This document shows, one piece after another, positions 1-28,001 of a DNA stretch of 32,893 nucleotides. The stretch covers positions 1 through 32,893 of the forward strand of contig CAUJIO010000042.1 in assembly GCA_963205315.1 (NCBI GenBank), written 5' to 3'. Within the stretch, counting starts at the first letter, position 1. Every line of letters starts with the position of its first letter. Below the pieces are notes generated by a model. The model made no database searches. It saw nothing but the letters and a program-made list of their open reading frames with translations, and was not told the origin of the DNA. The translations under genes were made by a program, and so were the position numbers. Origin of the DNA: Pseudomonadota bacterium. GTDB lineage: Bacteria; Pseudomonadota; Alphaproteobacteria; Rhizobiales; Aestuariivirgaceae.

Positions 1-1040
1 AACGACGTGATCGGCGCGATCTTGTCGCCGCTCCTGAGTGCATACCCGATGGCGATCGATTCCGGATTGCACGGCAACGGAATGATGTCGCCTTCGCCGA
101 AGGGCGTCTTGGCCTCGATGATCTTGCGGCGGATGTCGGAGAGCACGATGCGGTCCCTGGCCGGATCGAAATCTTCGTTCCGCCCGGCATCCTGGATGGG
201 CTGGAAGGTGATGCCGCGCACGCATTTCCACTGCAGGGCATAGTTGATGATCTCGCCCAGTTCGTCGTCGTTCTGGCCTTGCTTGACCACGACCACCAGC
301 GTGGTGGAAATCGATTCCCGTTCAAGGGCTTCCAGCGCCTGCCTGCGAATCCGGGTGAGGTCGGCGCCGCGCAGGTTCTTGTGAACTGAAGCCCTTAGCG
401 AGTCAAATTGCAGATAGACTTCAAAGCCCGGCGTGAAGGTCTTGAGCTGACTCACGAATTCCGGTTCCTGGGCGATGCGGATGCCATTGGTATTGAGCAT
501 CAGATGGCGGATCGGCCGGCGCTTGGCCGCTGCGAGAATGTCAAGGATCTGCGGGTGAATGGTCGGCTCGCCGCCCGAGATCTGCAACAGGTCGGGCTCG
601 CCTTCAGACGCCACCAGCGCATCCATCATCCGCTCGATCTCGGCCAGCGGGCGATGGGCGGTCTTCTGGGTCGAACTGTCTGCGAAGCATACCGGGCAGG
701 TCAAGTTGCACGCCTCGTTGACATCGATCAGCGCCAGGCAGGAATGCTGCTCATGGTCGGGGCACAGGCCGCAATCATAGGGACAGCCAAGTTCCGTGCG
801 GGTCTGGGGCGCCAGTGGCCGGTCTCCAGGTTTCAGATAGTCGTGGCAGAGCTTGTAGTAGCTGGCATCGGTGGAAACGAGCGCCTTCTCCACCCCATGC
901 GTTCTGCAGCGCTTGAGGTAATAGACATTGTTGCCTTCGATGATGATCTTGGCCGGCACCAGGGCCATGCAGGTGCCGCACATCGAAGTGGTCTGGCCAT
1001 AGAAGAGGTAGGGCGCGATCTTGCGGATGGGCGCGTTCAT
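1..1040 (-). CDS. Tes/MJ0619-like radical SAM enzyme (partial, C-terminus outside window)
   Basis: Translated by hand from the ATG at 1040; 346 codons are open to the window edge, so the C-terminus is missing. Cysteines occur in ordered groups: C21/C24 and C45 (a rubredoxin-like N-terminal knuckle, with K-R-C-R-T-H-G around C45), then C86, C90, C93 and C101 in a GCPYDCGLCPDHEQHSC stretch, then the radical SAM CxxxCxxC at C111, C115 and C118 (CNLTCPVCF). A SGGEP motif follows at 155-159. This order is that of the COG1964 family, which includes archaeal tetraether lipid synthase (Tes, MJ0619), a multi-cluster enzyme that couples lipid chains. The ATG overlaps the upstream stop as ATGA, so translation is probably coupled to two membrane protein genes. 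Family assignment is confident; a lipid substrate is inference from the family and the Lgt-like neighbour. Confidence 0.85.
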   Translation of the reverse strand, partial: MNAPIRKIAPYLFYGQTTSMCGTCMALVPAKIIIEGNNVYYLKRCRTHGVEKALVSTDASYYKLCHDYLKPGDRPLAPQTRTELGCPYDCGLCPDHEQHSCLALIDVNEACNLTCPVCFADSSTQKTAHRPLAEIERMMDALVASEGEPDLLQISGGEPTIHPQILDILAAAKRRPIRHLMLNTNGIRIAQEPEFVSQLKTFTPGFEVYLQFDSLRASVHKNLRGADLTRIRRQALEALERESISTTLVVVVKQGQNDDELGEIINYALQWKCVRGITFQPIQDAGRNEDFDPARDRIVLSDIRRKIIEAKTPFGEGDIIPLPCNPESIAIGYALRSGDKIAPITS

Positions 1041-1477
1041 GAGGCTGGTTCCTGCGAAGCGAAGAGATCGGCGGTCCAGTCCGGTCCCATGATGGCCAGC
1101 CCCACCGTCAGCAGCGACAGGATGCCGAACAGGCCAAGCACGGGGAAGCTCAGGCCCGCAAAGCCGATGAAGCCCGCCGCCCACAGCCCGCTCAGTGCCA
1201 TGAGGAGGCGCAACAAGATTTTGCCCTGCTCCCGCAGGCCGTTGCGCGCCTGCTCCACCGCATTGGCAAACAGGATGGTGAAAAGTCCCGAGAGGAAAAC
1301 CGGCAACACGAAGATGGCGATGATGATCCACATCAGGAATGCGAAGAATCCACCGTCCTCGATGTCGATCCAGCTGAACAGTATGTTCCATAAGAGCCAG
1401 ATCAGGGCACCCGTGGCCACCCCGCTTGCCACCTGCAGCCAGCCCAGAACCCGGCACCAGAAATCCGCCCGCGTCAT
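1037..1477 (-). CDS. small multi-spanning membrane protein, unknown function
   Basis: Encodes 146 residues starting MTRADFWCRVLG. The start is set by the ATGA overlap with the upstream stop codon; a longer in-frame version exists but would run deep into the preceding gene. I see about four hydrophobic segments: roughly residues 14-36, 44-70, 86-104 and 107-128. A short charged loop (ANAVEQARNGLREQGK) lies between the second and third. No catalytic motif or conserved domain is recognisable. Its stop overlaps the start of the radical SAM gene by the same ATGA arrangement, so the three genes are almost certainly one translationally coupled operon. A role as membrane anchor or partner of the radical SAM enzyme is inference only. 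Confidence 0.75.
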   Translation of the reverse strand: MTRADFWCRVLGWLQVASGVATGALIWLLWNILFSWIDIEDGGFFAFLMWIIIAIFVLPVFLSGLFTILFANAVEQARNGLREQGKILLRLLMALSGLWAAGFIGFAGLSFPVLGLFGILSLLTVGLAIMGPDWTADLFASQEPAS

Positions 1478-2175
1478 GCCGAGGCCTTCCTCCCGCTTAT
1501 CATGACGGCAGAATAGATCATGAGTCCCGCACAAATGAAATGGAACAGATTTAACAGATTTAACTGCGCCAGCACCGCCCCATAGGGCTTGAGGAACTCC
1601 CACAGGAAGCGCTGCGCGGCATAGGTCAGCACCAGCAGATAGAAGCCGTTGCGCATGAACATCGCATTGCGGCGGCCGATCAGTACCAGAGCCAACAGCA
1701 GGAATCCCGCCATTGTGAAGGACTCATAGAGCTGCACGGGATGGCGCAGAATGCCGTCGCCAAAGTCATGGCCCCAGGGCAGCGTGGTTGGTGTGCCGTA
1801 GGTCTGGTCGTCGAGGCCCGACAGGAAGCAGCCCCACCGCCCCACCATCACGCTGGTGGCAAAGGCCGGAACGAAAATGATCCCCGTCGATCCCCTGAGG
1901 CCTCGCCGTGCCTTGAAAATTTCGATGGCCGCAATGGCCCCCGCCAGCGCGCCGACGATGCTGCGGCCAATCCCCGGCAAACCCGTGAGCCAGAGATTGA
2001 GTGTCCCTGCTCCAAACCCGCCAATGACAGCACCCACCACCAGCGCAAGCGCATAGCCGATCCCCGCGGTCTCAATGACCTGCGCAGCACTGCTCAACCG
2101 CCAGCGATAGGCCAGCAAAGTCATTGTGAGGGCCGAGGCCGCGGCAAGAAGATCAAAAACGGTGTGAACGAACAT
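1474..2175 (-). CDS. Lgt-like (prolipoprotein diacylglyceryl transferase family) membrane protein, divergent
   Basis: 233 residues from the ATG at 2175 (MFVHTVFDLL); a TTG at 2205 would add ten residues but has no better ribosome site. Six to seven hydrophobic segments are visible. Lgt hallmarks are present in altered form: GRWGCF at 112-117 stands where Lgt has GRxGNFxNGE, RHPVQLYE at 144-151 is intact, and R189 and E193 (QRFLWEF) match the conserved Arg/Glu of Lgt helix 7. The Lgt HGG segment reads SIVGALAG, so the essential His appears lost, and the signature Asn is Cys116. The protein therefore belongs to the Lgt fold but probably does not perform standard phosphatidylglycerol-to-prolipoprotein transfer. 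First gene of a coupled operon ending in a Tes-like radical SAM enzyme; a role in handling a lipid substrate is inferred. Confidence 0.8.
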   Translation of the reverse strand: MFVHTVFDLLAAASALTMTLLAYRWRLSSAAQVIETAGIGYALALVVGAVIGGFGAGTLNLWLTGLPGIGRSIVGALAGAIAAIEIFKARRGLRGSTGIIFVPAFATSVMVGRWGCFLSGLDDQTYGTPTTLPWGHDFGDGILRHPVQLYESFTMAGFLLLALVLIGRRNAMFMRNGFYLLVLTYAAQRFLWEFLKPYGAVLAQLNLLNLFHFICAGLMIYSAVMISGRKASA

Positions 2176-2364: not shown

Positions 2365-2742
2365 CTATGCAGTTTTCAGCGCGGGCATTGCGTTCCAGGC
2401 AAACAGCAATGTGCCAGCCAGGAACCCGAATGAGGCCAGAGCCGTCACCGGTTCAAGCGCCTCGTTGCCGGCCAGCAGGAAGAACAGCGACACCACCAGC
2501 ACGACACCGCTGACGGCCTGCACCCAGAAATGCACAAGAGCCATGCGGCTTCCGCCGATGGCCGGGAACAGATGGTAGAAATATGCAAAGATCGCCGACA
2601 TCACCCATCCCGCCACCATCGTATGGGCATGAACCGGCATTTCCGAATGATCATGGCTGGCGGCCATGTAGATACCCAGCACCATGCCGCAAATGGCATA
2701 GGCGAGAGCAAGCATAAAAAAGAGTCGAGCAGCACCCTTCAT
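2365..2742 (-). CDS. small four-helix membrane protein with heme-copper-oxidase-like His motif
   Basis: 125 residues with four predicted membrane helices, at about 7-27, 39-60, 69-91 and 102-121. After helix 1 comes a His-rich patch (H30, H32, H38, H40), then HAHTMVAGWVMSAIFAYFYHLFP with H57 and the GW pair, and H71 opens helix 3. The HxH..GW...Y..FP pattern resembles one helix pair of heme-copper oxidase or nitric oxide reductase subunit I, but the protein is only about a quarter of that size and has no copper-B His pair. I would call it a subunit-I-like small protein of unknown function, possibly binding heme or copper. The start has a good GGGGAC ribosome site 7-12 bases upstream. It is followed by the terminator at 2322-2348. 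Confidence 0.7.
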   Translation of the reverse strand: MKGAARLFFMLALAYAICGMVLGIYMAASHDHSEMPVHAHTMVAGWVMSAIFAYFYHLFPAIGGSRMALVHFWVQAVSGVVLVVSLFFLLAGNEALEPVTALASFGFLAGTLLFAWNAMPALKTA

Positions 2743-14409: not shown

Positions 14410-14523
14410 GATCGGTCCTAAGGGTCTGCGAATCAAGCCGAATGCGCCTTTGCCCAATTTTGCGCCGACATAGGACTATTTCCCTTGGTCGGACGAAAGA
14501 TGAGCCGGGCCAGGACCGGTATT

Positions 14524-14537
14524 TTGATCCAGGTCAA
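14524..14537 (+). promoter_or_regulatory. FixK/FNR-type box upstream of ccoN
   Basis: TTGATCCAGGTCAA: half-sites TTGAT and GTCAA with a four-base centre, one base off the FNR/Anr consensus and a full match to the rhizobial FixK pattern TTGA-N6-TCAA. Its centre is 67 bases upstream of the ccoN ATG. A possible -10 (TAGCAT, 14557-14562) would place transcription start near 14569-14572, about 39-41 bases from the box centre, the usual distance for a class II activator site. It implies induction of the oxidase at low oxygen. Confidence 0.85.
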
Positions 14538-14597
14538 TGCTGGTGCGTGCGCCTGCTAGCATGCACGCAACTGAACGTTATCAGAAAGGGGTCTCTC

Positions 14598-16202
14598 ATG
14601 GGGGCTGGATCACTTGTGCAAATGGGCCTTTGGGCACTGCTTGCACTTCTCGCCATAACCATGGGCGCAAAGGCGGAAGATCTGCCATTTGCCGTCCATA
14701 TGTACATTTTCGCGGCTGCCGCCCTGCTCGCCTTGGTTTTCAAGGCCCGCAGCTTCGGCAAGCCCGCACCTGACACGTCGGGGTATCTCGACGGCGTCGT
14801 GCGCTACGGCGCGATCATCACCGTTTTCTGGGGAGTCGTCGGCTTCCTTGTCGGCGTGGTGGTTGCCCTGCAACTGGCCTTCCCGGGCTGGAACCCGGAT
14901 CTTGAATGGTTCAACTTCGGCAGGCTGCGTCCGCTGCACACCTCGGCAGTGGTCTTTGCTTTCGGCGGCAACGCGCTCATCACGACGAGCTTCTACGTGG
15001 TCCAGCGGACCAACCGCACGCGCCTCGCGCTTGGCAATCTCTCCTGGTTCGTGTTCTGGGGCTACCAGCTGTTCATCGTGCTGGCTGCCACAGGTTACCT
15101 TCTGGGTGTTACGGAAGGCCGCGAATATGCCGAACCCGAATGGTATGTCGATCTCTGGCTGACGATCGTCTGGGTCGCCTATTTCCTGGTGTTCTTCGGT
15201 ACGCTTCTGCAGCGCAAGGAATCCCACATCTACGTGGCAAACTGGTTCTACCTGTCGTTCATCGTGACGATCGCCATGCTGCACATCGTCAACAACCTGT
15301 CGATCCCGGTTTCGATCTTCGGCTCGAAGAGCTACTCGGCTTTCTCAGGCGTGCAGGATGCCCTCACCCAGTGGTGGTACGGCCATAACGCCGTGGGCTT
15401 CTTCCTCACCGCAGGCTTCCTCGGCATGATGTATTACTTCGTGCCAAAGCGCGTCGAACGTCCGGTCTATTCCTACCGTCTGTCGATCGTCCACTTCTGG
15501 TCGCTGATCTTCCTTTATATCTGGGCCGGTCCGCACCACCTCCACTACACTGCCCTGCCCGATTGGGCGCAGACGCTCGGCATGGTGTTCTCGATCATGC
15601 TGTGGATGCCCTCATGGGGCGGCATGATCAACGGCCTCATGACGCTGTCCGGCGCCTGGGACAAGCTGCGCACCGATCCGGTTCTGCGCATGATGGTGAT
15701 CTCGGTCGCCTTCTACGGCATGTCGACCTTCGAAGGCCCGATGATGTCGATCAAGGCAGTGAACTCACTGTCTCACTACACCGACTGGACCATCGGCCAC
15801 GTGCATTCCGGCGCTCTCGGCTGGGTTGGCATGATCTCCATGGGCTGCATGTATCACCTGATCCCGCGCCTGTGGGGCCAGAAGGAAGTCTACTCGCTTC
15901 GTCTCGTCAGCTGGCATGTCTGGCTCTCCACCCTCGGCATCGTGGTTTACGCCTCGGCCATGTGGGTGTCGGGCATCATGCAGGGCCTGATGTGGCGCGA
16001 GTATGATGACCAGGGCTTCCTCGTCTACTCCTTCGCGGAGACGGTCGCGGCCATGCATCCTTACTATGTCATCCGCGCTTTCGGCGGCCTGCTCTTCCTC
16101 GTGGGCGCGCTGATCATGGTCTACAACCTCTACCGCACCATCGGCGGCCAGAGGCCCGTGAAGGTCGCGGTTCCCGGTGCAGCGCTCGCAGCGGCCGAAT
16201 AA
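14598..16202 (+). CDS. ccoN: cbb3-type cytochrome c oxidase subunit I
   Basis: 534 residues from the ATG at 14598, set by AGGGG six bases upstream; the frame is open further but would cross the FixK box. It is the catalytic, membrane-embedded subunit that reduces O2 to water at a heme b3-CuB centre. All key ligands are present: H114 (heme b), H263 with H313/H314 (CuB), Y307 six residues before H313 (the cbb3-specific Tyr that cross-links to the CuB His), H401 (heme b3) and H403 (heme b) in [10 protein letters not shown], and E379. The spacings match those of characterised cbb3 enzymes (50 residues H263 to H313, 87 H314 to H401). The N-terminal 50 residues add an extra hydrophobic hairpin, common in alphaproteobacterial CcoN. 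First gene of ccoNOQP, under a FixK-type box. Confidence 0.98.
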
Positions 16203-16223
16203 GAGAATAAGGAAACACGTGTC

Positions 16224-16955
16224 ATGAAACACGAATCTCTCGAAAAGAATGCCACGCTGCTGCTGATCTTCAGCTTCCTCGTGGTCACCGTCGGCGGCCT
16301 CGTCCAGATCGCTCCACTGTTCTATCTCCAGAACACCATCGAGTCGGTCGAAGGCATGCGCCCCTACACGCCGCTCGAACTGGCGGGCCGCAACGTCTAC
16401 GTCCGTGAAGGCTGCTACGTCTGCCACAGCCAGATGATCCGCCCCTTCCGCGATGAGGTGGAGCGCTACGGCCATTACAGCCTGGCGGCCGAGTCGCAAT
16501 TCGACCACCCCTTCCAGTGGGGCTCGAAGCGTACTGGTCCCGATCTTGCCCGCGTCGGCAACAAGTACTCCGACGACTGGCATCGCGAGCATCTGATGAA
16601 TCCGCGCAACGTCGTGCCGGAATCGGTGATGCCCGGCTACGCCTACCTGATGAACAAGGAGGTCAAGATTGCCGGCTTCGGCAAGCACCTCGCGACGCTG
16701 AACCTGACCGCCAACAACGGCAAGGGCAACATGTACAGCGATGAACAAGTGGCCAGCGCCGAGGCCGACCTGCAGGCCCAGGCCACCGGTGTCGACGCCG
16801 ATGCAATGCTCGCCCGCTATCCGAAGTCACAGGCCCGCGACTTCGACGGCCAGCCCGCCAAGGTGACCGAGATGGACGCTCTCATCGCCTATCTCCAGAT
16901 GATGGGTACGCTTGTCGACTTCTCGACCTTCAAGACAGAAGTGGAGCCGCGCTGA
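16224..16955 (+). CDS. ccoO: cbb3-type cytochrome c oxidase subunit II (monoheme c)
   Basis: 243 residues. An N-terminal membrane anchor (about 10-30) is followed by a periplasmic cytochrome c domain with the heme site CYVCH (C64, C67, H68) and a likely Met ligand in SVMPGYAY. It passes electrons from CcoP toward CcoN. It begins 21 bases after ccoN with AAGGAA as ribosome site. Its TGA overlaps the ccoQ ATG by one base, indicating coupled translation. Length and motif order are normal for the family. Confidence 0.97.
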
Positions 16956-17116
16956 TGAGCACCTACGACACAATGCGGCATTTCGCGGACAGCTGGGGCC
17001 TCATCGCCATGTTCGTGTTCTTTGCCGCCGCGACGGCCTTTGTCTTCCGGCCCGGTTCCCGGGCTCACTATGAAGAGGCCGCGCGCATCCCCCTGAAGAA
17101 TGCCTCCGAGGACTGA
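16955..17116 (+). CDS. ccoQ: cbb3-type cytochrome c oxidase subunit IV (CcoQ/FixQ)
   Basis: A 53-residue protein, [16 protein letters not shown]..., with one membrane helix (about 15-31) and a charged C-terminal tail containing FRPGSRAHYEEAA. CcoQ/FixQ proteins are of this size, have a single helix, and stabilise the CcoP-CcoNO assembly. It starts inside the ccoO stop (TGATG) and ends 4 bases before the ccoP ATG, as expected for the NOQP order. Confidence 0.93.
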   Translation: MSTYDTMRHFADSWGLIAMFVFFAAATAFVFRPGSRAHYEEAARIPLKNASED

Positions 17117-17120
17117 TCCC

Positions 17121-18026
17121 ATGGCAACGAAAATCGAAAGAGACGAAATATCCGGCACGGACACAACCGGCCACGAGTGGGACGGCATCAAGGAGCTGAA
17201 CACTCCACTTCCCAAGTGGTGGCTCTACACCTTCTATGCCTGTGTCATCTGGGCACTTGGCTACACCGTGTTCTACCCGGCGTGGCCGATGATCTCGGGA
17301 GCGACACCGGGCGTTCTGGGCTATTCCTCGCGCGCCGAACTGGTGAAGACCGTCGACGTGGCCAAAGCCGCCCAGAAGGAGAACCTCGACAAGATCGCCG
17401 CGGCGAGCGTCGAGGACATCCTGAAGGACGAAAAGCTGCTGGCCTTCGCCCGTGCCGGCGGTGCCGCTGCCTTCAAGGTAAACTGCGTGCAGTGCCATGG
17501 CGCCGGCGCGGCCGGTTCGGTTGGCTATCCCAATCTCAACGATGACGACTGGCTTTGGGGTGGCCAGCCCGAGCAGATCCACACCACGCTCAAGAACGGC
17601 ATCCGCTACGTGCAGAACGCCGACACGCGTGTGATGGATATGCCGGTTTTTGGACCCGATCCCGCCAACGGCAACGCAGCCGTGCTGAAGCCTGAAGAGA
17701 TCGCCAGTGTCGCGAATTTCGTGATGACGCTCTCGGGTGGTGAAGCCGACGCCGCCAAGGCAGCAGCGGGCAAGGAGCTCTATGCGACCAACTGCGCCTC
17801 GTGCCATGGCGATACCGGCCTCGGCAACAAGGACATGGGTGCGCCCAACTTGACCGACAAGATCTGGCTCTATGGCGGCAAGATCGAGAACGTCGAAGCG
17901 CAGATCTCCAAGCCGCGCGTGGGTGTGATGCCGGCCTGGTCTGCCCGCCTCGACGAGGCGACGATCAAGCAGCTTGCCGTCTATGTCCACGCACTCGGCG
18001 GCGGCGAGGCGCCTGTCGCACAGTAA
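17121..18026 (+). CDS. ccoP: cbb3-type cytochrome c oxidase subunit III (diheme c)
   Basis: 301 residues from the ATG at 17121, with GAGGA eight bases upstream (within the end of ccoQ). An N-terminal amphipathic part precedes one membrane helix (about 33-56, WWLYTFYACVIWALGYTVFYP), then two cytochrome c domains with heme sites CVQCH (C122, C125, H126) and CASCH (C225, C228, H229) and Met ligands likely in VMDMPVFG and VGVMPAW. It accepts electrons from a soluble or membrane cytochrome c and relays them to CcoO. The gene is complete and of normal length. A strong hairpin follows at 18040. Confidence 0.97.
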   Translation: MATKIERDEISGTDTTGHEWDGIKELNTPLPKWWLYTFYACVIWALGYTVFYPAWPMISGATPGVLGYSSRAELVKTVDVAKAAQKENLDKIAAASVEDILKDEKLLAFARAGGAAAFKVNCVQCHGAGAAGSVGYPNLNDDDWLWGGQPEQIHTTLKNGIRYVQNADTRVMDMPVFGPDPANGNAAVLKPEEIASVANFVMTLSGGEADAAKAAAGKELYATNCASCHGDTGLGNKDMGAPNLTDKIWLYGGKIENVEAQISKPRVGVMPAWSARLDEATIKQLAVYVHALGGGEAPVAQ

Positions 18027-18039
18027 CGAAACGGCTTCG

Positions 18040-18077
18040 GTGGCCGCGCCAAGTGTGGCAACATGGCGCGCGGCCAC
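18040..18077 (+). terminator. strong GC-rich stem-loop between ccoP and ccoG
   Basis: GTGGCCGCG (18040-18048) pairs perfectly with CGCGGCCAC (18069-18077). Inside it CCA pairs with TGG after a two-base bulge, leaving a 12-base loop. It starts 14 bases after the ccoP stop. No T-run follows, so it may be a partial terminator or a processing and stability element that sets the ccoNOQP : ccoGHIS ratio, rather than a classic rho-independent terminator. Confidence 0.55.
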
Positions 18078-18150
18078 TGGCCAACTTCAATCGAACAGAC
18101 ACGGCGCCTACCTGACAGCCAAGGCCCTAGTCCGTGATCTGAGGGGAACG

Positions 18151-19674
18151 ATGGTTCAAGTCATCAATACGGTCGACTCTTCCGAGGTCGACAAGCACGA
18201 CGTCGCGGCGGTCAACAAGGCCGAGAACCGCCCGATGTATGCCTCGCGGGTGAAGATCCACCCCAAAGCCGGCGCCGGCACCTTCCGCCGCCTCAAGTGG
18301 ATTCTCGTCTTCGTTCTTCTCGGCATCTATTATATCTCGCCGTGGCTGCGCTGGGACCGGCCCGGCAATGCGCCCGATCAGGCGATCCTCATCGATCTAG
18401 CGAACCGCCGCTTCTACTTCTTTTTCATCGAGATCTGGCCGCAGGAATTCTATTATATCGCGGGCCTGCTCATCATGGCGGGCGTCGGACTTTTCCTCGT
18501 CACCTCGCTGGTTGGCCGTGCCTGGTGCGGCTATGCCTGCCCGCAAACCGTCTGGACTGACCTTTACATTTGGGTCGAGAGCAAGGTTGAGGGCGACCGC
18601 AATGCCCGCATCCGGCTTGATGCTGCGCCCTGGAGCGTTTCCAAGATCAGCAAGCGCGTCATCAAAATGGCGATCTGGCTGGTGATTGCAATCGCGACAG
18701 GGGGGTTCTGGGTCTTCTATTTCGCCGACGCGCCGACACTCCTGCATCAGCTGGTCACCGGGCAGGCTGCACCGGTCGCCTATTTCACCATTGCCATCCT
18801 GACCGCGACCACTTTCACCTTCGCCGGTTTCATGCGCGAACAGGTTTGCACTTACATGTGCCCGTGGCCGCGCATTCAGGGCGCCATGCTCGATGAGGAA
18901 TCGCTGATCGTCACCTACAATGCCTGGCGCGGCGAGCCCCGGCATGCGGGCCGCAAGAAGGCCGAGGCACAGGGATTGAAAGTGGGCGATTGCGTCGACT
19001 GCAATGCCTGTGTCGCCGTCTGCCCGATGGGTATCGACATTCGCGACGGCAACCAGCTCGAATGCATCAACTGCGCCCTGTGCATCGATGCGTGCGACAC
19101 GGTGATGGACAAGATCGGCCGTCCCAAGGGCCTGATCAACTATACGACGTCGAGCCTCTACAATGCGAATGTCGCCGGCAAGAACGAACATTGGAACGCC
19201 AGCCACCTGCTTCGTCCACGGACGGCAATCTATTTCACCGTGTGGGCCGCCGTCGGCATTGCCATGCTGGTGACGCTGATCAATCGCTCGCAGCTCGATG
19301 TCAATGTCGTGCCCGATCGCAATCCGCTGTTCGTACAGCTTTCCGATGGTGCTATCCGCAATGGCTACACCGTCAAGATCCTGAACCAGAAACAGGAGCT
19401 GCGGACGTTCCGCCTGTTGATCGATGGGCTGAAGGGCGCCACGATGGAAATGGTCGGCGAGGAAGGCGCGCCGCGCGAAGTTGTCGAGATCGCTGTGGAA
19501 CCGGACAAGCTCAAAGCCGTGAAGATCTATGTGTCGACGGCCGACCATGACGTTCTGAAGCATGGGAAGTCGGAATTCACATTCAGGGTCGAAGAATTGA
19601 ACGTCACGGGCGAGCCCGAAACAGCGATGGAACAAACGGTGTTCCACGCACCTGATAACGACGAAGAGGACTAA
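18151..19674 (+). CDS. ccoG: cbb3 oxidase accessory protein, polyferredoxin CcoG/FixG
   Basis: 507 residues from the ATG at 18151, which has AGGGG four bases upstream; the frame is open to 17974 but would overlap ccoP. Membrane helices lie at about 50-66, 100-120, 170-192, 208-226 and 420-440. Cysteine motifs are WCGYACPQT (C126, C130), VCTYMCPWP (C233, C237), and two ferredoxin clusters C281/C284/C287/C291 and C305/C308/C311/C315. A C-terminal Ig-like periplasmic domain completes it. CcoG is proposed to reduce copper for delivery to the oxidase CuB centre. First gene of the ccoGHIS maturation unit, which continues with short spacings. Confidence 0.96.
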   Translation: MVQVINTVDSSEVDKHDVAAVNKAENRPMYASRVKIHPKAGAGTFRRLKWILVFVLLGIYYISPWLRWDRPGNAPDQAILIDLANRRFYFFFIEIWPQEFYYIAGLLIMAGVGLFLVTSLVGRAWCGYACPQTVWTDLYIWVESKVEGDRNARIRLDAAPWSVSKISKRVIKMAIWLVIAIATGGFWVFYFADAPTLLHQLVTGQAAPVAYFTIAILTATTFTFAGFMREQVCTYMCPWPRIQGAMLDEESLIVTYNAWRGEPRHAGRKKAEAQGLKVGDCVDCNACVAVCPMGIDIRDGNQLECINCALCIDACDTVMDKIGRPKGLINYTTSSLYNANVAGKNEHWNASHLLRPRTAIYFTVWAAVGIAMLVTLINRSQLDVNVVPDRNPLFVQLSDGAIRNGYTVKILNQKQELRTFRLLIDGLKGATMEMVGEEGAPREVVEIAVEPDKLKAVKIYVSTADHDVLKHGKSEFTFRVEELNVTGEPETAMEQTVFHAPDNDEED

Positions 19675-19679
19675 GGATC

Positions 19680-20162
19680 ATGGCCATTGCCGCCACCGAG
19701 AAGCAGTTCACCGGCAAGCACATGCTGATGTCGATCATCGCTTTCTTCGCTGTGATTTTCGGCGTCAACTTCACCATGGCCTTTCTGGCCAACTCCACAT
19801 GGTCCGGGCTCGTGGTCGCCAATGGTTATGTGGCGAGCCAGAGTTTTGACAAGGATCTTGCCCGCCAGCGCGCGCAAGAGGCACTGGGCTGGACTGTGGC
19901 CCTCTCACACGCCGACGGCCGCATCCGCATCACGTTTGCCGACGCCGGCAAGGCTAAGATCGAAGGCTTGAGCATTACCGGCAAGCTTGAACGCCCGGTG
20001 ACCGACAAGGAAGACCAGGTCTTGACCTTTTCCAGCATGGGCTCTGGCGTCTATACGGCCCCCGCCGTCCTGAGCCCCGGTGTCTGGGACGTCGAGATTG
20101 ACGCCAAGGGCGGCGCCGGTGCGGATTACCGCAAGACCTTCCGCTTCATCACCAAGGGCTGA
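19680..20162 (+). CDS. ccoH: cbb3 oxidase assembly protein CcoH/FixH
   Basis: 160 residues. One N-terminal membrane helix (about 15-37, MSIIAFFAVIFGVNFTMAFL) carries a periplasmic beta-rich domain ending FRFITKG. FixH proteins are this size and are needed for stable assembly of the cbb3 complex. TAAGGA lies across and just after the ccoG stop as ribosome site, and the ATG is 5 bases from that stop, so translation is closely coupled. Identity is supported by order between ccoG and ccoI and by the NGYVASQSFDKD segment after the helix. Confidence 0.92.
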   Translation: MAIAATEKQFTGKHMLMSIIAFFAVIFGVNFTMAFLANSTWSGLVVANGYVASQSFDKDLARQRAQEALGWTVALSHADGRIRITFADAGKAKIEGLSITGKLERPVTDKEDQVLTFSSMGSGVYTAPAVLSPGVWDVEIDAKGGAGADYRKTFRFITKG

Positions 20163-20166
20163 AGCC

Positions 20167-22458
20167 ATGACCCTTCCCTGCTGCACCATCGATGGCGAAT
20201 ATTTCCAGCCGTTCAAGCTCGAGGGCGAGGACGCGGACCGCTGGACATCGACGGCAGGGCCGGGACTGAAGCGCATTGAATTCCTTGTCCCGCAGGCAAA
20301 CCGGCCACAGGCGATGAGTGAGATCGAGCGGGAAATGCCGAAACTTGACGGCGTGAAATCAGTCCGCGTCAATCTCACCGGCCGCCGCGTGACATTCATC
20401 TATGCCGACGACGTTGTAGAACCCCAGGTGCTGATCGATCAGCTTGGATCACTGGGATACATGGCAAGGCCCTTCGATCCGCGCGAGACGGGTCTGACCA
20501 AGGATGATCGTGACGGCGGAAAGCTGCTGCGGGCCCTGGCGGTGTCCGGCTTCGCTGCCGGCAACGTCATGTTGCTCTCGGTCTCCGTCTGGTCTGGGGC
20601 CGAAGACGCGACACGGGACTTTTTTCACTGGCTCTCGGCGATGATCGCCCTGCCCGCCGTCGCCTACGCCGGCCGGCCATTCTTCTATTCCGCCGTGAAC
20701 GCCCTGCGCCTCGGCCGGGTCAACATGGATGTGCCGATCTCGCTCGGCGTGCTGCTGGCCTCCTTCATGAGCCTGTACGAAACCATCAATGGTGCAGAGC
20801 ACGCATATTTCGATGCTTCAGTCACCCTGCTATTCTTCCTGCTCGCCGGACGTTATCTTGATCACCTAATGCGGGCGCGGGCGCGTTCAGCCATCGCCCA
20901 GCTCGTCTCGCTATCCGCCGATGGCGCCGCCGTTGTCGAGCCCGACGGCAGCCGCCGCTATCTTGCTGCCCGCGATCTGAAGCCCGGCATGCTCATCGCC
21001 ATAGCGGCCGGCGACAAGCTGCCCGTGGACGGCCGCATCGTCGACGGCATCAGCGACATGGATCGCTCGCTCCTGACCGGAGAATCCGCGCCCGAAACCG
21101 TGCGGCCCGGAAACCTCGTACACGCCGGCGAAACCAATTTGACAGCACCGGTGATTGTCGAGATCACCGCCGCAGGCAACGATACCTTCCTCTCGGAACT
21201 GGTGCGCCTCGTGACGGCAGCCGAGCAGAGCCAGTCCCGATACATCCGTATCGCCGACCGGCTGGCGCGTTATTATTCTCCGGCCGTCCACACCCTGGCC
21301 GCAATCACGCTGGCTGGCTGGCTGCTCATGGGCCATGGCTGGCACGACGCCCTGATGGCGGCCGTCGCTGTCCTCATCATTACCTGCCCCTGCGCGCTCG
21401 GCCTCGCCGTTCCGGCTGTGCAGGTGGTGGCGAGCGGCCGCCTGTTCCGGGCCGGTGTGATGATCAAGGATGGCGCGGCGCTGGAGAAACTGGCGGATGT
21501 CGACACCGTGATCTTCGACAAGACCGGCACGCTGACCCGTGGCGAACCGGCTCTCGTTTCGCCGCTGACCGTATCCACCGAAACGCTGGCGATCGCCGCC
21601 GGCCTGGCGCAATCGAGCAAGCATCCCCTGTCACAGGCGCTGACGCGTGAAGTCGCGCGGCGCGGTTTGACGCCGCTATCGGTGAGCGACATCGTCGAGC
21701 ATCCGGGACAGGGCCTGTCTGGCACCTATCATGGCGAAAGATTGCGGCTCGGCAACCGGGCCTGGTGCGGCGCAGAAGAAAGTGCAGAGGACCACGGGCT
21801 GTTGGAATTCGCCTTCCGCCGTGGCGCCCGTGCGCCCGTGATGTTCCACTTCGAAGACAAGCTGCGCAGCAATGCTGCCGAGACCATCCGAACGCTAAAG
21901 GACATGGGGCTGAACGTGTCGCTGCTGTCGGGTGACCGTGAGGCAGCAGTAAACCGCGTGGCCATTGCAGTCGGCATCGAGACTGCTGTGCCACGCGCCT
22001 CCCCGCAGGCCAAGCTTGCTTATGTTGAGGCCCTGAACAAGGCCGGACGCAAGGTGCTGATGGTTGGTGACGGCATCAACGACGCACCCGCCCTGGCCGC
22101 CGGCTATACGTCCATGGCGCCGTCCTCTGCCTCCGACATCGGCCGCACCGCGGCGGAAACCGTCTTCATGGTGGAATCGGCCTCCGCTGTCGCTGAAGCC
22201 ATCCAGGTCAGCCGCCGGACCCAGGCCATTGCCAAGGAGAACTTCCTGCTGGCCGTCGGCTACAACGTTCTCGCCGTGCCGCTCGCCATGGCGGGTCTTG
22301 TGTCGCCGCTGGTGGCGGCGGTGGCGATGTCCACCTCCTCGATCATCGTTGTCGCCAACGCACTGCGGGTTGGATTGGGCAAGACCAAGAAAGCTGGTAC
22401 GAGCACCCCCGCGGCAAAGCACAGCGTCGCTGCCGCAAACCTGCGAGATGCTGCATGA
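20167..22458 (+). CDS. ccoI: copper-translocating P1B-type ATPase CcoI/FixI
   Basis: 763 residues from the ATG at 20167, four bases after ccoH; AAGGG inside the end of ccoH is the ribosome site. Motifs of a P1B ATPase are all present: TGES (304-307), CPC in a membrane helix (C407, P408, C409; the copper path), DKTGT with phosphorylated D451, the HP pair H485/P486, and GDGINDAP (634-641). Eight membrane helices are expected. It exports copper for assembly of the CuB centre. Oddity: the N-terminal HMA-like domain (about 35-100) has lost the CxxC; where the metal loop should be it reads VPQANRPQAM. A vicinal Cys pair remains at C5/C6. The last base triplet overlaps ccoS as ATGA. Confidence 0.95.
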   Translation: MTLPCCTIDGEYFQPFKLEGEDADRWTSTAGPGLKRIEFLVPQANRPQAMSEIEREMPKLDGVKSVRVNLTGRRVTFIYADDVVEPQVLIDQLGSLGYMARPFDPRETGLTKDDRDGGKLLRALAVSGFAAGNVMLLSVSVWSGAEDATRDFFHWLSAMIALPAVAYAGRPFFYSAVNALRLGRVNMDVPISLGVLLASFMSLYETINGAEHAYFDASVTLLFFLLAGRYLDHLMRARARSAIAQLVSLSADGAAVVEPDGSRRYLAARDLKPGMLIAIAAGDKLPVDGRIVDGISDMDRSLLTGESAPETVRPGNLVHAGETNLTAPVIVEITAAGNDTFLSELVRLVTAAEQSQSRYIRIADRLARYYSPAVHTLAAITLAGWLLMGHGWHDALMAAVAVLIITCPCALGLAVPAVQVVASGRLFRAGVMIKDGAALEKLADVDTVIFDKTGTLTRGEPALVSPLTVSTETLAIAAGLAQSSKHPLSQALTREVARRGLTPLSVSDIVEHPGQGLSGTYHGERLRLGNRAWCGAEESAEDHGLLEFAFRRGARAPVMFHFEDKLRSNAAETIRTLKDMGLNVSLLSGDREAAVNRVAIAVGIETAVPRASPQAKLAYVEALNKAGRKVLMVGDGINDAPALAAGYTSMAPSSASDIGRTAAETVFMVESASAVAEAIQVSRRTQAIAKENFLLAVGYNVLAVPLAMAGLVSPLVAAVAMSTSSIIVVANALRVGLGKTKKAGTSTPAAKHSVAAANLRDAA

Positions 22459-22741: not shown

Positions 22742-25700
22742 ATGACGGCGCATCGCAACCCTGTTCATGCCTTGCCGTGGATTCAGGCGAGAGTGGTCTG
22801 GTTGGCTATCCTCAGCCTGTTTGCTCTTTTGATGCCGTCGATACCGGCGCAGGCGGCCAAGCCCTTCCCCGTCGATCAGTTCAGCTATTACCTCAGTGAC
22901 TACGATTATGAGCTCGCCAAGCTCGCCAAGGATCTCAAGAAGACCGAAGCGGAGCTGCTAGCCGATATCCAGTCGGCGGAAACTGCCGGCAATGCCAGGC
23001 TGACGGCAGCGGCCATTGAACAGCTTCTGACCAAGCGCCCGACCGATAGCGCGTTGTGGCTGAAGCTTGCACAGCAGCTGGCTGTCTCCACTCCGATCAA
23101 TGATTCAGATGGCTACCAGCTTCCGTCCAAGATGATCGGCGCAGGACTTCGCGCCTACACCTATGCGAAGACCGCACCCGATGAGGCTGCTGCTCTTCTG
23201 ATCGCCGGTCAGGGCTTTGCCAAGCGCGAGAACTGGCGCCCGGCCCTCCTGGCCTACAAGGAAAGCCTCAAACTCGTCGAAATGGCCGAGGTCCGCGACA
23301 CCTACGAAACCATGCGCATCGATCATGGCTTCCGCGTTGCCGACTACAAGGTCGAGAATGATGCGACACCGCCGCGCGCCTGCTTTGAAATGTCCGAGCC
23401 GATCTCGCGCACCGTCACCGATTTCACCTCCTACTTCACCCAGGAACCAGGCCCCGTCGCCGCTGTCACGGCGGAGGGAACCAGACTCTGCGTTGAGGGC
23501 CTGAAGCATGGCGAGCGCTACACCATCACCGCCCGCAAGGGCCTGCCCGCCGCCGCCGATGACACCATGGCCAAGGACTTCTCCTTCGATTTCTATGTGA
23601 AGGATCGCAATCCCTCGGTGCGTTTCGCCAGCAAGAGCTATGTGCTGCCGCGCACCGGCCAGACCGGCATTCCGGTGATTTCGGTCAACAGCAAGGAAGC
23701 CAAGCTGGCGCTCTATCGCATCGGCGACCGCAACCTCATCGACAACGTGATGGGCTCTGATTTCCGCTCCCAGATCAACGGATACTCCGCCCAGGACATT
23801 GCCAACCAGAAGGGCAATCTTGTCTGGGAAGGCACCATGGAAACACCCGCTCCTCTCAACGAGGACGTAACAACCGCCTTCGCCGTTGATGAGGCGATGG
23901 GACAATTGCAGCCCGGCCTCTATGTGATGACGGCGACGCCCGCCGACATCGAGACTGACAGCTATGACCAGGTGGCGACGCAGTGGTTCGTGGTTTCCGA
24001 TCTCGGCCTCTCGACCATGAGTGGTAAGGATGGTCTGCACGTGGGCCTGCGCTCGATCGCCACGGCCGATCCGCTGGCGGATGTCGAGGTGCGCCTCATC
24101 GCCCGCAACAACGACATCCTGGCCACCGCCAAATCCGACGCCACGGGCACGGTGATATTCGCGCCTGGCCTGCTGAAGGGCGAAGGCGGATTGAGCCCGG
24201 CACTGGTCGTCGCCCAAAGTGCCGCCAGTGACTACAGTTTCGTCGACCTGACGCAGCCCGCCTTCGACCTCACCGACCGTGGCGTTGACGGCCGCGCCCC
24301 ATCCGGCGCAATCGACGCTTTCGTCTATGCCGAACGCGGCGTCTATCGCCGTGGCGAAACCGTTCATGCGACCGTGCTGCTGCGCGACGATGCCGCCAAC
24401 GCTCTGAGCGGAACACCCGTGACGCTGGTCGTGGAACGCCCTGACGGCGTCGAATACCTCTCCATCACGCTCGATGACAAAGGCGCCGGCGGGCATTCCC
24501 ATGACTTCGCCATCAATGCGGTGGCGCAGGGCGGAACCTGGCGCATCAAGGCGCTGACCGATCCCAATGGCGAGACCATCGGCGAGACGTCCTTCCTGGT
24601 CGAGGACTATGTGCCGGACCGCATCGAGTTCGATCTGAAGTCGAAATCGGCAACGGCAACCGTCGGTGAAGGCGCAGCCTTTGCGATCGACGGACGCTAT
24701 CTGTTTGGCGCGCCCGCCGCCGGTCTTGATCTCGAGGCCAGCCTGTCGATCACCGCAGACGGCCGGCCCTTCGCTCAGTGGAAAGACTATCAGTTCGGCC
24801 TGATGGACGAACGCATCGATACCATCCAGACGACGCTGAGCGATCTGCCGCAGACCGACATCAACGGCCATGCCGATGTCGTGGTGCGCCTGCCCGATCT
24901 GCCGGTGACATCGCAGCAATTGCGTGCCGATATTTCGGTGCGCATGCGCGAACCGGGCGGCCGTGCCGTCGAACAGACGGCGAGCCTGCCCATTGAGGCC
25001 ACCCAGCCGATGCTCGGTTTGAAGGCCGGGTTCGACTACGGTGCGGCTCCCGAAGGCGAGCCCGCGGCCTTCAAGCTGATCGCCATCGACAAGACCGGCA
25101 AGCAGGTGGCGGCCAAAGGTGCGGCCTGGACGCTGAAGCGTCTGTCGCGTGACTGGCAGTGGTTCAAGATGGATGGCGAATGGCGCTGGGAGGGCATCAC
25201 CCGCACCTCGAAGATCGCCAATGGCGTCATCGACATTGCGGCCGACAAGCCAACCGACTTTGCCCGCACCCTGTCCTGGGGCGAATATCGCCTCGAGATC
25301 GCGGCGGATGGCATGACGCCGGTGAGCATGGATTTCTCCGCCGGCTATTATTACGGCGATACCTCCAAGGCCGATACGCCCGACACGCTGAAAGTGGCGC
25401 TCGACACCACCGACGCCAAGTCCGGCGACACGGTGAACGTCAAGATCGAAGCCCGCTACGCCGGCAAGGCGACCGTGCAGGTCGTCGGTGACCGCCTGCT
25501 CTCCAGCCAGACCATCGACGTGCCGGAAGGCGGTCTCACCCTGCCAATCAAGGTCGGCAGCGACTGGGGCACCGGCGCCTATGTACTCGCCAGCCTCTAC
25601 AAGCCGATGGACGTCAAGGCCAAGCGCATGCCCTCGCGTGCCATGGGCCTCGCCTGGTTCGGCATTGACCGCGCCTCGCGGACTCTCGGCATCAAGCTGA

Positions 25701-28000
25701 CGCCGCCCGAGATGATGAAGCCGCGCCAAAAGCTCACCGTTCCGGTGAAGGTCGAAAATCTGTCGCCCGGCGAAGAAGCCTTTATCACGCTTGCGGCCGT
25801 CGATGTCGGCATCCTCAATCTCACCCGCTACGATCCTCCCGCGCCCGAGAATTATTACTTCGACCAGAAGCGCCTGACGGCGGAACTGCGCGACATCTAT
25901 GGCGTGCTGATCGACGGCATGCAGGGCGAACGCGGCAAGCTGCGCTCAGGCGGTGACGGCGGTGCAGCCTTTACCGCTCCTCCCCCGGCGCAGAAGCCCC
26001 TCAGCCAGTATTCCGGCATCGTCAAGGTGAATGACGATGGCACGGCCTCCATCGACTTCGAGATTCCGGCCTTCAACGGCACGGTGCGGGTGATGGCGGT
26101 AGCCTGGAGCAAGACCAAGGTCGGCCATGCCTCGAGCGATGTCATCGTGCGCGACCCGATTGTGGTTTCGGGCACCCTGCCGCGCTTCATGGCGGTGGGC
26201 GACACTTCGCGCCTGCGCTTCGACATCGTCAATGCCGAAGCACCGGCCGGCGACTACACGCTCGGCATCTCGATCGACGGCCCGGTCTCAGCCGATGCCG
26301 CAGCGAAAATCCAGAAGGTGACGATCGCAGCAGCTGGCGCACGCTCCACCATCCTCGTGCCGATCACCGCGACCGGCCCCGGTGTGGCGAGCGTCATCGC
26401 CACGCTGAAAGGACCGGGCGACCTGATCCTCGATCAGGATTTCGCGCTGGGCGTGGTGCCTGCCAACCCACTGGTGACGCACCGCACCACCATGCCGCTT
26501 GCGGCAAAGGGGGGCTCGCTCACCCTGAGCAAGGATATCGTGGCCGACATGCTGCCGGGCACGGCGTCGGTCGCGCTCTCGGTCAGCCCGCTGCCCGAGA
26601 TTGATGTCGCGGGCCTCGTCCGTGATCTCGACCGCTATCCCTATGGCTGCTCGGAGCAGACGGTCAGCCGCGCCTTGCCGCTGCTTTACCTGAGCGATCT
26701 TGGCGTCGATCCCAAGGACATCGACGGCGAATTGAAGGAACGCATGCAGCAGGCCGTGGCCCGTCTCGTCAACCGTCAGTCCGGTTCGGGTTCGTTCGGC
26801 CTTTGGTCGGCCTATGGCGACGACTCCAGCCTGTGGCTGTCGTCCTTCGTCACCGACTTCCTGTTGCGGGCCCGCGAAAAGGGCTTCGAGGTGCCGGAAG
26901 ACGTGCTGGTGAACGGCATCGACTATATCCGCAACATGGTTGGCAACGCGCCGGACATCGAGCAAGGCGGTGGCCAGGACATGGCTTATGCGCTTTATGT
27001 TCTCGCCCGGGCCGGCCGCGCTCCGGTGGGCGACCTCAAGTATCTCACCGATACCAAGCTCGATGACTTCGGTTCGCCGCTGGCCCGTGCGCAGGTAGCG
27101 GCCGCCCTCTCAATGCTCGGCGACCGCGATCGTGCCGACACAGCCTTCGCTTCCGCCATCGAAAAGCTCGGCGAGGATGTGGAGGACACGAATCGTGGCT
27201 TCTGGCGTGCCGACTATGGCAGCGTGTTGCGCGATGCCTCGGCCATTCTGGCGCTGGCCACCGATGCCAAGGCGAAGCCCGAGATCCTTCGCACGGCGAT
27301 GAGTGCGATCGAGGTTGAGCGCGCCCGCACACGCTATGCCTCCACTCAGGAAATGTCCTGGATGGTGCTGGCGGCGCGCGCCGTCATCGAGCAGTCGAAG
27401 ACGATTGCGCTCGACGTCGGTGGCTCCGTTCACAACGGCACCCTCAACCGCATGTTCCGCGATGGTGCGCTGGAACAGGATGTCCGCGTCACCAACAAGG
27501 GCGACCAGCCCTTGCGCGCCGTGGTCGCCGTGTCGGGATCGCCGCTGGTGGCGGAACCGGCCAGCAGCAATGGTCTGACGGTGGAACGGAAATACTTCAC
27601 CACCGCCGGAGAGCCCGTCGATATCGCCACAGTCCAGCAGAACACCAGGCTTGTGGCGGTGCTGAGCGTGATGAAGCCTGACGGCCAGTCGGAGAACGGT
27701 ACATTCCTGCTGGTCGACCCGCTGCCCGCCGGCTTCGAGATCGAGAACCCGACGCTGGTGGCCTCTGGCGGTACGGCCAATATCCCGTGGCTCACCGACA
27801 CGACCTGGGCGAGCTACACCGAGTTCCGAGATGATCGCTTCGTGGCGAGCTTCACCAACTCGACGGCCAAGCTCGCTTACATGATCCGCGCCGTGGCACC
27901 GGGCACTTATGCGCATCCGGGCGCCTATGTCGAAGACATGTACCGGCCCGAGCTGAATGCCCGCGGCCCGACCACATCCGTCATCGTCTCGGCGCCCTGA
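22742..28000 (+). CDS. yfhM: bacterial alpha-2-macroglobulin family protein (YfhM-type), thioester-containing
   Basis: 1752 residues. A long N-terminal signal sequence (hydrophobic core about 18-34, cleavage near AQA-AK at 38/39) sends it to the periplasm. There is no lipobox Cys, unlike E. coli YfhM, which is a lipoprotein. A helical N-terminal part (40-200) is followed by macroglobulin-like beta domains; AFVYAERGVYRRGETVH at about 526-542 marks an MG2 domain, and FNGTVRVMAVAWSKTKVG lies at about 1110-1128. The thioester motif CSEQ is intact at C1303-Q1306 (PYGCSEQT), inside an alpha/alpha toroid domain (about 1290-1560). These proteins trap proteases that breach the envelope. GGAGGA gives a strong ribosome site, which lies in a hairpin. 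The stop is two bases from the pbpC ATG, matching the common yfhM-pbpC pairing. Confidence 0.95.
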   Translation: MTAHRNPVHALPWIQARVVWLAILSLFALLMPSIPAQAAKPFPVDQFSYYLSDYDYELAKLAKDLKKTEAELLADIQSAETAGNARLTAAAIEQLLTKRPTDSALWLKLAQQLAVSTPINDSDGYQLPSKMIGAGLRAYTYAKTAPDEAAALLIAGQGFAKRENWRPALLAYKESLKLVEMAEVRDTYETMRIDHGFRVADYKVENDATPPRACFEMSEPISRTVTDFTSYFTQEPGPVAAVTAEGTRLCVEGLKHGERYTITARKGLPAAADDTMAKDFSFDFYVKDRNPSVRFASKSYVLPRTGQTGIPVISVNSKEAKLALYRIGDRNLIDNVMGSDFRSQINGYSAQDIANQKGNLVWEGTMETPAPLNEDVTTAFAVDEAMGQLQPGLYVMTATPADIETDSYDQVATQWFVVSDLGLSTMSGKDGLHVGLRSIATADPLADVEVRLIARNNDILATAKSDATGTVIFAPGLLKGEGGLSPALVVAQSAASDYSFVDLTQPAFDLTDRGVDGRAPSGAIDAFVYAERGVYRRGETVHATVLLRDDAANALSGTPVTLVVERPDGVEYLSITLDDKGAGGHSHDFAINAVAQGGTWRIKALTDPNGETIGETSFLVEDYVPDRIEFDLKSKSATATVGEGAAFAIDGRYLFGAPAAGLDLEASLSITADGRPFAQWKDYQFGLMDERIDTIQTTLSDLPQTDINGHADVVVRLPDLPVTSQQLRADISVRMREPGGRAVEQTASLPIEATQPMLGLKAGFDYGAAPEGEPAAFKLIAIDKTGKQVAAKGAAWTLKRLSRDWQWFKMDGEWRWEGITRTSKIANGVIDIAADKPTDFARTLSWGEYRLEIAADGMTPVSMDFSAGYYYGDTSKADTPDTLKVALDTTDAKSGDTVNVKIEARYAGKATVQVVGDRLLSSQTIDVPEGGLTLPIKVGSDWGTGAYVLASLYKPMDVKAKRMPSRAMGLAWFGIDRASRTLGIKLTPPEMMKPRQKLTVPVKVENLSPGEEAFITLAAVDVGILNLTRYDPPAPENYYFDQKRLTAELRDIYGVLIDGMQGERGKLRSGGDGGAAFTAPPPAQKPLSQYSGIVKVNDDGTASIDFEIPAFNGTVRVMAVAWSKTKVGHASSDVIVRDPIVVSGTLPRFMAVGDTSRLRFDIVNAEAPAGDYTLGISIDGPVSADAAAKIQKVTIAAAGARSTILVPITATGPGVASVIATLKGPGDLILDQDFALGVVPANPLVTHRTTMPLAAKGGSLTLSKDIVADMLPGTASVALSVSPLPEIDVAGLVRDLDRYPYGCSEQTVSRALPLLYLSDLGVDPKDIDGELKERMQQAVARLVNRQSGSGSFGLWSAYGDDSSLWLSSFVTDFLLRAREKGFEVPEDVLVNGIDYIRNMVGNAPDIEQGGGQDMAYALYVLARAGRAPVGDLKYLTDTKLDDFGSPLARAQVAAALSMLGDRDRADTAFASAIEKLGEDVEDTNRGFWRADYGSVLRDASAILALATDAKAKPEILRTAMSAIEVERARTRYASTQEMSWMVLAARAVIEQSKTIALDVGGSVHNGTLNRMFRDGALEQDVRVTNKGDQPLRAVVAVSGSPLVAEPASSNGLTVERKYFTTAGEPVDIATVQQNTRLVAVLSVMKPDGQSENGTFLLVDPLPAGFEIENPTLVASGGTANIPWLTDTTWASYTEFRDDRFVASFTNSTAKLAYMIRAVAPGTYAHPGAYVEDMYRPELNARGPTTSVIVSAP

Positions 28001-28001
28001 C

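Follow-up and report, generated by a model that had tools for sequence, protein, structure and literature searches.

According to the excerpts available of their source papers, the radical SAM enzyme Tes (GDGT-MAS; M. jannaschii MJ0619, PDB 7tol and 7tom) and the enzyme Mss act on free lipids (PMC9433317, PMC8941075, PMC13274423). The excerpt of PMC9433317 gives the rubredoxin, N-terminal cluster and radical SAM ligands of Tes, names a labile Met439 for a C-terminal cluster through which the enzyme forms its bond, and reports an assay with archaetidylglycerol; that of a 2026 paper proposes substrates bearing phosphatidylglycerol (PG) for Mss (PMC13274423), and that of PMC13188914 lists a further relative, TrsS, without a function. 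Bacterial homologues of Tes have been proposed as makers of branched tetraethers (excerpt of PMC8941075), and those in bacteria without known lipids of this kind were left open (excerpt of PMC9433317). Here we describe a bacterial locus in which a radical SAM enzyme of the Tes fold is encoded beside a divergent relative of the prolipoprotein diacylglyceryl transferase Lgt (hereafter, the LGT-like enzyme) and, in most loci, beside small membrane proteins with a cysteine in a recurrent position. It straddles one end of a contig of 32,893 nt (CAUJIO010000042.1, our C42; hereafter, the window) from an alphaproteobacterium of the Aestuariivirgaceae (assembly GCA_963205315.1; 4.67 Mb in 112 contigs). 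PG is the lipid donor of Lgt (PDB 5azb and 5azc), and lipoproteins carry a lipobox, with Leu at −3 and a small residue at −1 of the cysteine, after which the chain is soluble.

Across many bacterial phyla, the LGT-fold and the Tes-fold radical SAM enzymes are encoded by one jointly inherited locus. A scan of a collection of species genomes yielded at least 584 loci, the best 80 of which are the basis of all counts out of 80 given below. They span seven or more phyla: Pseudomonadota, Bacillota, Cyanobacteriota and Melainabacteria, Acidobacteriota, Bacteroidota, Verrucomicrobiota, Omnitrophota and one metagenome-assembled genome of Planctomycetota, whose protein nests among those of Sphingomonadaceae in the tree presented below and which may be mis-binned. 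An LGT-like open reading frame (ORF) lies on the same strand, at most 1.4 kb upstream of the radical SAM gene, in 77 of the 80 loci; in the other three (L058, L106 and L128), 5 to 332 bases of contig precede the radical SAM match, too few to tell. This bears out the adjacency on which a preliminary description of the locus, made from the sequence alone, had staked its proposal. Among 299 Pseudomonadota genomes, the radical SAM gene occurs in nine, ours included, and the other eight carry an LGT gene upstream (at approximately 0.8 kb in L053 and 0.2 kb in L051). Conversely, a profile of the LGT-like enzyme produced strong matches (267–314 bits) in exactly the same nine genomes, the next score being 92 bits. 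At a finer scale, 19 of 61 genomes comprising our own and its relatives contained the radical SAM gene, every one of them within the genus, and the LGT-like gene was upstream in all 15 genus loci fetched. Across 37 genomes of the genus, it was found in 18 of the 19 carriers of the radical SAM gene and in none of the 18 others; in the lone miss (G012), the radical SAM match begins at base 107 of its contig.

For comparison outside the clade, 149 Acidobacteriota and 199 Bacillota genomes, containing many paralogues, were searched with the radical SAM profile, and 51 loci were examined with 1.5-kb flanks, with clade membership assigned at a profile score of 660 bits or more (n = 12). An LGT ORF was present within 1.5 kb in 11 of the 12 clade loci, the twelfth having one approximately 2.5 kb away behind an inserted gene, as compared with 1 of the 39 non-clade loci, of Tes, Mss or TrsS type; the exception (L185) is from a Bacillota genome and has its LGT gene downstream. 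Wider stretches around three outside-clade genes (L206–L208, two of them among the other 38 loci) contained no LGT gene. From the proportion of linked loci, the coincidence in nine of 299 genomes, the near absence outside the clade and the co-occurrence within the genus, we reject chance or local linkage of the pair.

Clustering of the ORFs flanking the 80 loci, with Bradyrhizobium and Paenibacillus each counted once and cluster names assigned by eye, yielded a radical SAM cluster present in 55 groups and a main LGT cluster present in 34. The next clusters, sensor-like (19 groups), antisense (15) and ABC-like (11), were rarer and scattered over many offsets, and we therefore discarded them as further conserved neighbours. 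Two loci deserve separate mention: in L205 (G416, acidobacterial), a 653-codon ORF lies on the opposite strand between the LGT-like and the radical SAM genes, and in G021 a frame change interrupts the radical SAM gene (L035 4947–6313) next to LGT-like and small-protein ORFs that look whole, either a decaying copy or an assembly error.

The radical SAM enzyme matches the Pfam family Radical_SAM (76.8 bits) and the HMPTM N-terminal zinc ribbon (57.5 bits). The cysteine layout listed in the preliminary description (C21/C24/C45, C86/C90/C93/C101 and C111/C115/C118) is as described there and invariant in all 39 aligned relatives (39 of the 80 loci). Likewise, the rubredoxin site (C21, C24, C45 and H48), the N-terminal cluster (C86, C90, C93 and H96) and the radical SAM motif (C111, C115 and C118), ligand sets shared with Tes, are complete in 40 of 40 clade rows; Mss has the superfamily and the N-terminal metal sites in common with the clade. 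Tes is also the closest solved structure by sequence (292.7 bits). An AlphaFold model of the L057 protein, a 94% identical relative (pLDDT 82.7, with residues 356–401 mostly of low confidence), matched Tes 7tol over the whole chain (TM 0.80/0.76, E 3.7e-38), whereas the other proteins among the best 50 matches listed did not exceed a TM of 0.41 of the query. SkfB and SuiB, both peptide maturases, are among the folds that rank next to Tes in the matches listed, and align over the radical SAM core only (TM 0.36–0.39 of the query).

Despite this common fold, the clade differs from Tes, Mss and TrsS. Four near-full-length clade members scored 279.8, 296.3, 286.1 and 280.6 bits with the curated NCBIfam model of Tes, whose cut-off is 450 bits, while a control (L168), belonging to the acidobacterial rows that group with Tes and that we label Mss-like, passed it with 551.9 bits; its 1.5-kb flanks contain no LGT gene. 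The best-scoring NCBIfam model for the four clade members is TrsS (NF045646), but their 303.7–331 bits are below its cut-off of 490 bits, which was reached in none of 249 Pseudomonadota genomes. Two columns that are Cys in Tes (C455 and C470 by our own count on the alignment of the Tes sequence, their role as cluster ligands being suggested by conservation) have Ser/Thr and Asp/Glu throughout the 40 clade rows, and hold Cys in all of 15 Mss-like, 13 other Bacillota and 6 intermediate rows. The column of Tes Tyr459 is Phe, Ile or Met in the clade, which has in turn an invariant C395 C396 pair that, of the outside rows compared, L185 (an intermediate row) alone has in full; C101, C324 and C434 are clade-invariant too, yet present in some other groups. 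C324, C395, C396 and C434 are candidate ligands of the C-terminal cluster in the clade. In a tree of 99 rows, built by a quick method, with several long branches and with Tes as the sole characterised enzyme, the 59 clade rows (nine of them repeats of a genome) grouped together with a support of 100, apart from a group of M. jannaschii Tes and 16 other rows, with a support of 99, in which the Mss-like rows fall; no row of known non-lipid function appeared in the tree.

We thus rejected membership of the enzyme in Tes or TrsS by the curated scores and, for Tes and Mss, also by the lost cysteine columns: the earlier assignment to the MJ0619/Tes family holds for the fold and the nearest solved structure, but not at the curated cut-off or at those two columns. 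Since Tes makes its bond through the C-terminal cluster, and the corresponding region differs in the clade, its acyl-chain C–C coupling is not simply transferable to these enzymes.

An intermediate radical SAM gene of a Bacillota genome (G699, L204 5442–7963; 433 bits) has a small membrane protein gene upstream and an LGT gene downstream. Its product has both Tes-type cysteine columns and the CC pair, and may show the origin of the clade.

By sequence, the partner enzyme belongs to the Lgt fold, as initially described: it scored 59.6 bits with Pfam LGT (cut-off 24.9), and four distant members scored 72.3, 83, 92.4 and 73.9 bits. With the curated model TIGR00544, however, it reached only 27.2 bits, below the cut-off of 118.9. 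We aligned 69 family rows with the two other LGT proteins of our genome, numbering them through PDB 5azb, whose chain is one ahead of the E. coli numbers. R113, Y185 and R189, equivalent to R143, Y235 and R239 of E. coli Lgt, are present in 69 of 69 rows, as is the RHP segment; these three residues, like His103 and Asn146, are important for the function of Lgt. The family departs from Lgt at the last two positions, as detailed below, and has new invariants of its own (H4, E85, K88, K196 and P197). We rejected the gene as the housekeeping Lgt, because the genome encodes a 236-bit full Lgt elsewhere and another LGT-family protein of 153 bits. The latter (G000:C58:39731-40441, L055) retains the His and the Asn that correspond to His103 and Asn146, and carries a C-terminal extension.

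The window ends inside the radical SAM gene, containing 346 of its 470 codons, and an exact overlap of 140 bases (window 1–140, L004 14214–14353) joins it to contig C63. The preliminary description covered only part of the operon because of this contig end, beyond which lie five small membrane ORFs (S1 to S5) with the motif F[GAS]GGC. A small membrane ORF starts between 60 bases before and 650 bases after the radical SAM stop in 42 of the 80 loci, and all 42 carry a Cys 13–26 residues after a charged residue, or after the N-terminus, with a hydrophobic run between. Looser inspection, including the region upstream of the LGT gene, added 17 loci, giving 59 of 80; this was a count by eye, in which some ORFs overlap others (L057, L064, L069, L075, L078, L080, L089, L090, L093, L108, L110, L112, L114, L115, L118, L119 and L121). 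Two gammaproteobacterial loci (L110 and L111) contain, upstream of the pair, short ORFs resembling ordinary small lipoproteins (ALGCS) approximately 2.6–2.7 kb before the radical SAM stop, which were excluded from the count.

The cysteine criterion, defined after the sequences had been inspected, applied to 22 of 24 non-redundant ORFs, as compared with 7 of 45 controls (Fisher 5e-10); this larger set supersedes a smaller control (46 of 46 ORFs as compared with 2 of 19). In those 22 ORFs, the distance from the last charged residue, mostly basic, to the Cys was 13–24 residues, with a median of 19. The two ORFs failing the criterion are presumably rhomboid-like and DsbA-like genes. A Cys of any kind was present in 23 of the 24 candidates and in 40 of the 45 controls. 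Sets picked by type displayed a GGC with Arg at −17 (TM2-type, 11 of 11), FxG[GS]C with Lys at −17 (A4-type, 11 of 11), the Cys (NAAC-type, 10 of 10) or PG followed by one or two residues and C (Bradyrhizobium-type, 8 of 8). Within the genus, an A4-type protein with FxG[GS]C is encoded by 16 of the 19 radical SAM carriers and by none of the 18 other genomes, and two of the three remaining carriers (G005 and G009) have another type (L029 and L036). Divergent copies may be found in tandem, five in our genome and four in L059. Neither the five proteins of our genome nor three from relatives matched a named family above the cut-off. The small proteins share with lipobox lipoproteins the order of charged (mostly basic) anchor, hydrophobic stretch and Cys, but not a common Leu at −3 or a soluble chain after the Cys, where hydrophobic residues are the commonest at +2 to +4.

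We tentatively propose, with a probability of about 0.42, that these genes constitute a three-part protein-lipidation system, in which the LGT-like enzyme lipidates a membrane-embedded Cys with a lipid modified by the radical enzyme. The small cysteine proteins would be the substrates: their Cys would lie near the far end of the helix, in the geometry of a lipoprotein signal peptide, and would be lipidated at the outer face, probably without cleavage, because the chain stays hydrophobic after it. The LGT-like enzyme, with both key arginines kept, would transfer a diacylglyceryl-type lipid to the Cys, and the radical SAM enzyme would modify the lipid, either free or already bound to protein, by hydrogen abstraction on its chain, the radical-modified lipid being the product for which the divergent LGT would be specialised. 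The pairing makes sense because of a common type of lipid, archaetidylglycerol for Tes and PG for Lgt and, as proposed, for Mss. A more specific form of this proposal seems unlikely to us in full, namely that of a new class of intramembrane lipoproteins, in which the Tes-fold enzyme would activate the PG tail and join it to another tail or to sulfur. The membrane-spanning or tail-modified lipid so formed would then be attached by the divergent LGT to a Cys within tiny, uncleaved membrane proteins.

Several observations weigh against protein lipidation. No cysteine mini-protein was recognised in the flanks searched of 21 of the 80 loci, nine of them from Bradyrhizobium, although three of the 21 have less than 1.6 kb of flank after that gene pair's radical SAM member; moreover, the cysteine criterion is post hoc, and 7 of 45 controls also satisfy it. 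Around the Cys, the small proteins are unlike a lipobox, with G at −2 in 13 of the 22 ORFs, a −1 position occupied by L in 9, G in 7 and A in 4, and Leu outside the eight commonest residues at −3. The small protein of L034 has a sub-threshold match to Pfam Cation_efflux (24.0 bits, cut-off 26.6; E 3.8e-5). As for the LGT-like enzyme, C116 replaces Asn146 in 69 of 69 rows, and the nine family rows listed have Val or Ala in the His103 column; as both residues matter in Lgt, diacylglyceryl transfer may be lost or changed. Lastly, a Foldseek search with its AlphaFold model (pLDDT 91.3) produced no match at E 0.001 or better, and no Lgt structure (5azb) was among the best 50 of 169 matches listed.

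The 21 loci without a nearby small cysteine protein would be accommodated if the pair made a free modified lipid, with the small proteins as accessories, such as membrane recruiters or thiol or sulfur donors. This is a possible, if doubtful, explanation, consistent with the action of Tes and Mss on free lipids in the excerpts cited above (PMC9433317, PMC8941075, PMC13274423) and with the invariant C116 that the LGT-like enzyme has of its own. It leaves unexplained, however, why small proteins vary in number, up to five, while keeping the Cys segment, and why the partner has a fold that lipidates proteins. The tandem arrays, five copies in our genome and four in L059, divergent and keeping little beyond the Cys segment, resemble arrays of precursors, and could mean that the small proteins are direct substrates of the radical SAM enzyme in a membrane-type radical peptide maturation, for instance through a thioether from the Cys to a nearby residue or a lipid chain, with the LGT-like enzyme presenting the lipid or the helix. 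The appearance of SkfB and SuiB among the next folds after Tes in the matches listed agrees with this idea, but their similarity is confined to the radical SAM core (TM 0.36–0.39), as opposed to the whole-chain match to Tes (0.80), and in a lipoprotein-like topology the Cys would be across the membrane from a cytosolic enzyme; we consider it rather improbable.

The preliminary description had envisaged radical modification of acyl chains, or of a lipidated substrate, by the pair. The conserved linkage and the tree leave this broad proposal standing, but not its acyl C–C coupling by analogy with Tes. A Tes- or Mss-type enzyme joining bulk acyl chains into membrane-spanning lipids, presented by the LGT-like protein, would agree with Tes as the nearest solved structure and with the common rubredoxin, N-terminal cluster and radical SAM ligands. 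Nevertheless, we deem it highly improbable: L168, the one Mss-like row run against the Tes model, passes it (551.9 against 450 bits), without an LGT gene in its 1.5-kb flanks, whereas the four clade members remain at 280–296 bits, and the two cysteine columns kept by Tes, by 15 of 15 Mss-like rows and by 13 of 13 other Bacillota rows are lost in 40 of 40 from the clade. Protein lipidation is the reading that we retain tentatively. The cysteine mini-proteins found beyond the contig end make protein, instead of bulk lipid, the likely substrate.

All three genes of the preliminary description are present at positions 1–2175 of the window, all on the minus strand, and its two ATGA overlaps are confirmed (Table 1). 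Their treatment as one conserved unit did not hold, because the middle membrane protein is lineage-specific: tblastn identified it in our own locus and in 6 of 15 genus loci, and in none of eight distant proteobacterial loci, and it has no family match above the cut-off. A similar overlap joins the radical SAM stop to the first F[GAS]GGC gene on C63 (L004 13841–13844); the radical SAM gene and S1, S1 and S2, and S3 and S4 all overlap by four bases, whereas S2 and S3, and S4 and S5, are one base apart.

Table 1. Genes and gene overlaps of the locus in the window and on the adjoining contig C63 (L004)
Feature	Coordinates	Strand	Basis
LGT-fold protein (233 aa), a divergent Lgt relative and the radical SAM enzyme's dedicated partner	window 1474..2175	-	Pfam LGT, family invariants, AlphaFold model
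ATGA stop/start overlap, LGT-like gene and middle membrane protein gene	window 1474..1477	-	sequence
Middle small membrane protein, 146 aa; lineage-specific accessory without conserved cysteine motif	window 1037..1477	-	ORF
ATGA stop/start overlap, middle membrane protein and radical SAM genes	window 1037..1040	-	sequence
Radical SAM enzyme (Tes-fold superfamily), residues 1–346 of 470	window 1..1040	-	Pfam Radical_SAM, HMPTM zinc ribbon
Radical SAM enzyme, remainder (C63)	L004 14353 to 13841	-	140-base contig overlap
S1, 84 aa	L004 13844-13590	-	small membrane ORF with F[GAS]GGC
S2, 121 aa	L004 13593-13228	-	small membrane ORF with F[GAS]GGC
S3, 85 aa	L004 13226-12969	-	small membrane ORF with F[GAS]GGC
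S4, 131 aa	L004 12972-12577	-	small membrane ORF with F[GAS]GGC
S5, 99 aa	L004 12575-12276	-	small membrane ORF with F[GAS]GGC

After the small cysteine proteins there is a gene (L004 11439–12236) for a membrane protein that we take to be TerC-like, an arrangement often repeated in the genus (L024, L025, L027, L031, L033, L034 and L036). On the other side, the operon is adjoined by a gene for a small protein with a below-cut-off match to COX1 (window 2365–2742). The rest of the window includes genes for a cbb3-type cytochrome oxidase (COX1 and FixO) and an E1-E2 ATPase (14442–22458), and for a bacterial alpha-2-macroglobulin followed by a penicillin-binding protein with BiPBP_C (22742–30104).

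In our searches of the open-access literature, which included the name COG1964, no title or abstract found describes the pairing of a radical SAM with an LGT-like enzyme; an incidental mention in a full text is possible, and the scope of this search leaves out subscription papers and preprints. Both enzymes are members of known superfamilies, but each fails tests for the known families, and we know of no system that matches the three-part arrangement; it is, apparently, a widespread and undescribed bacterial gene set. One large bacterial clade of Tes homologues thereby gains a fixed partner, probable substrates and a testable product. The presence of a bacterial Tes homologue in soil metagenomes, consequently, need not mean a maker of membrane-spanning lipids. 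If the lipidation reading is true, the locus would constitute, next to Lgt/Lsp/Lnt, a further route to lipidated proteins and, to our knowledge, the first to recruit a radical SAM enzyme. Were the small proteins indeed intramembrane lipoproteins of a new class, a radical lipid chemistry so far known from tetraether-type membrane lipids would serve to anchor proteins in the membranes of many common environmental bacteria.

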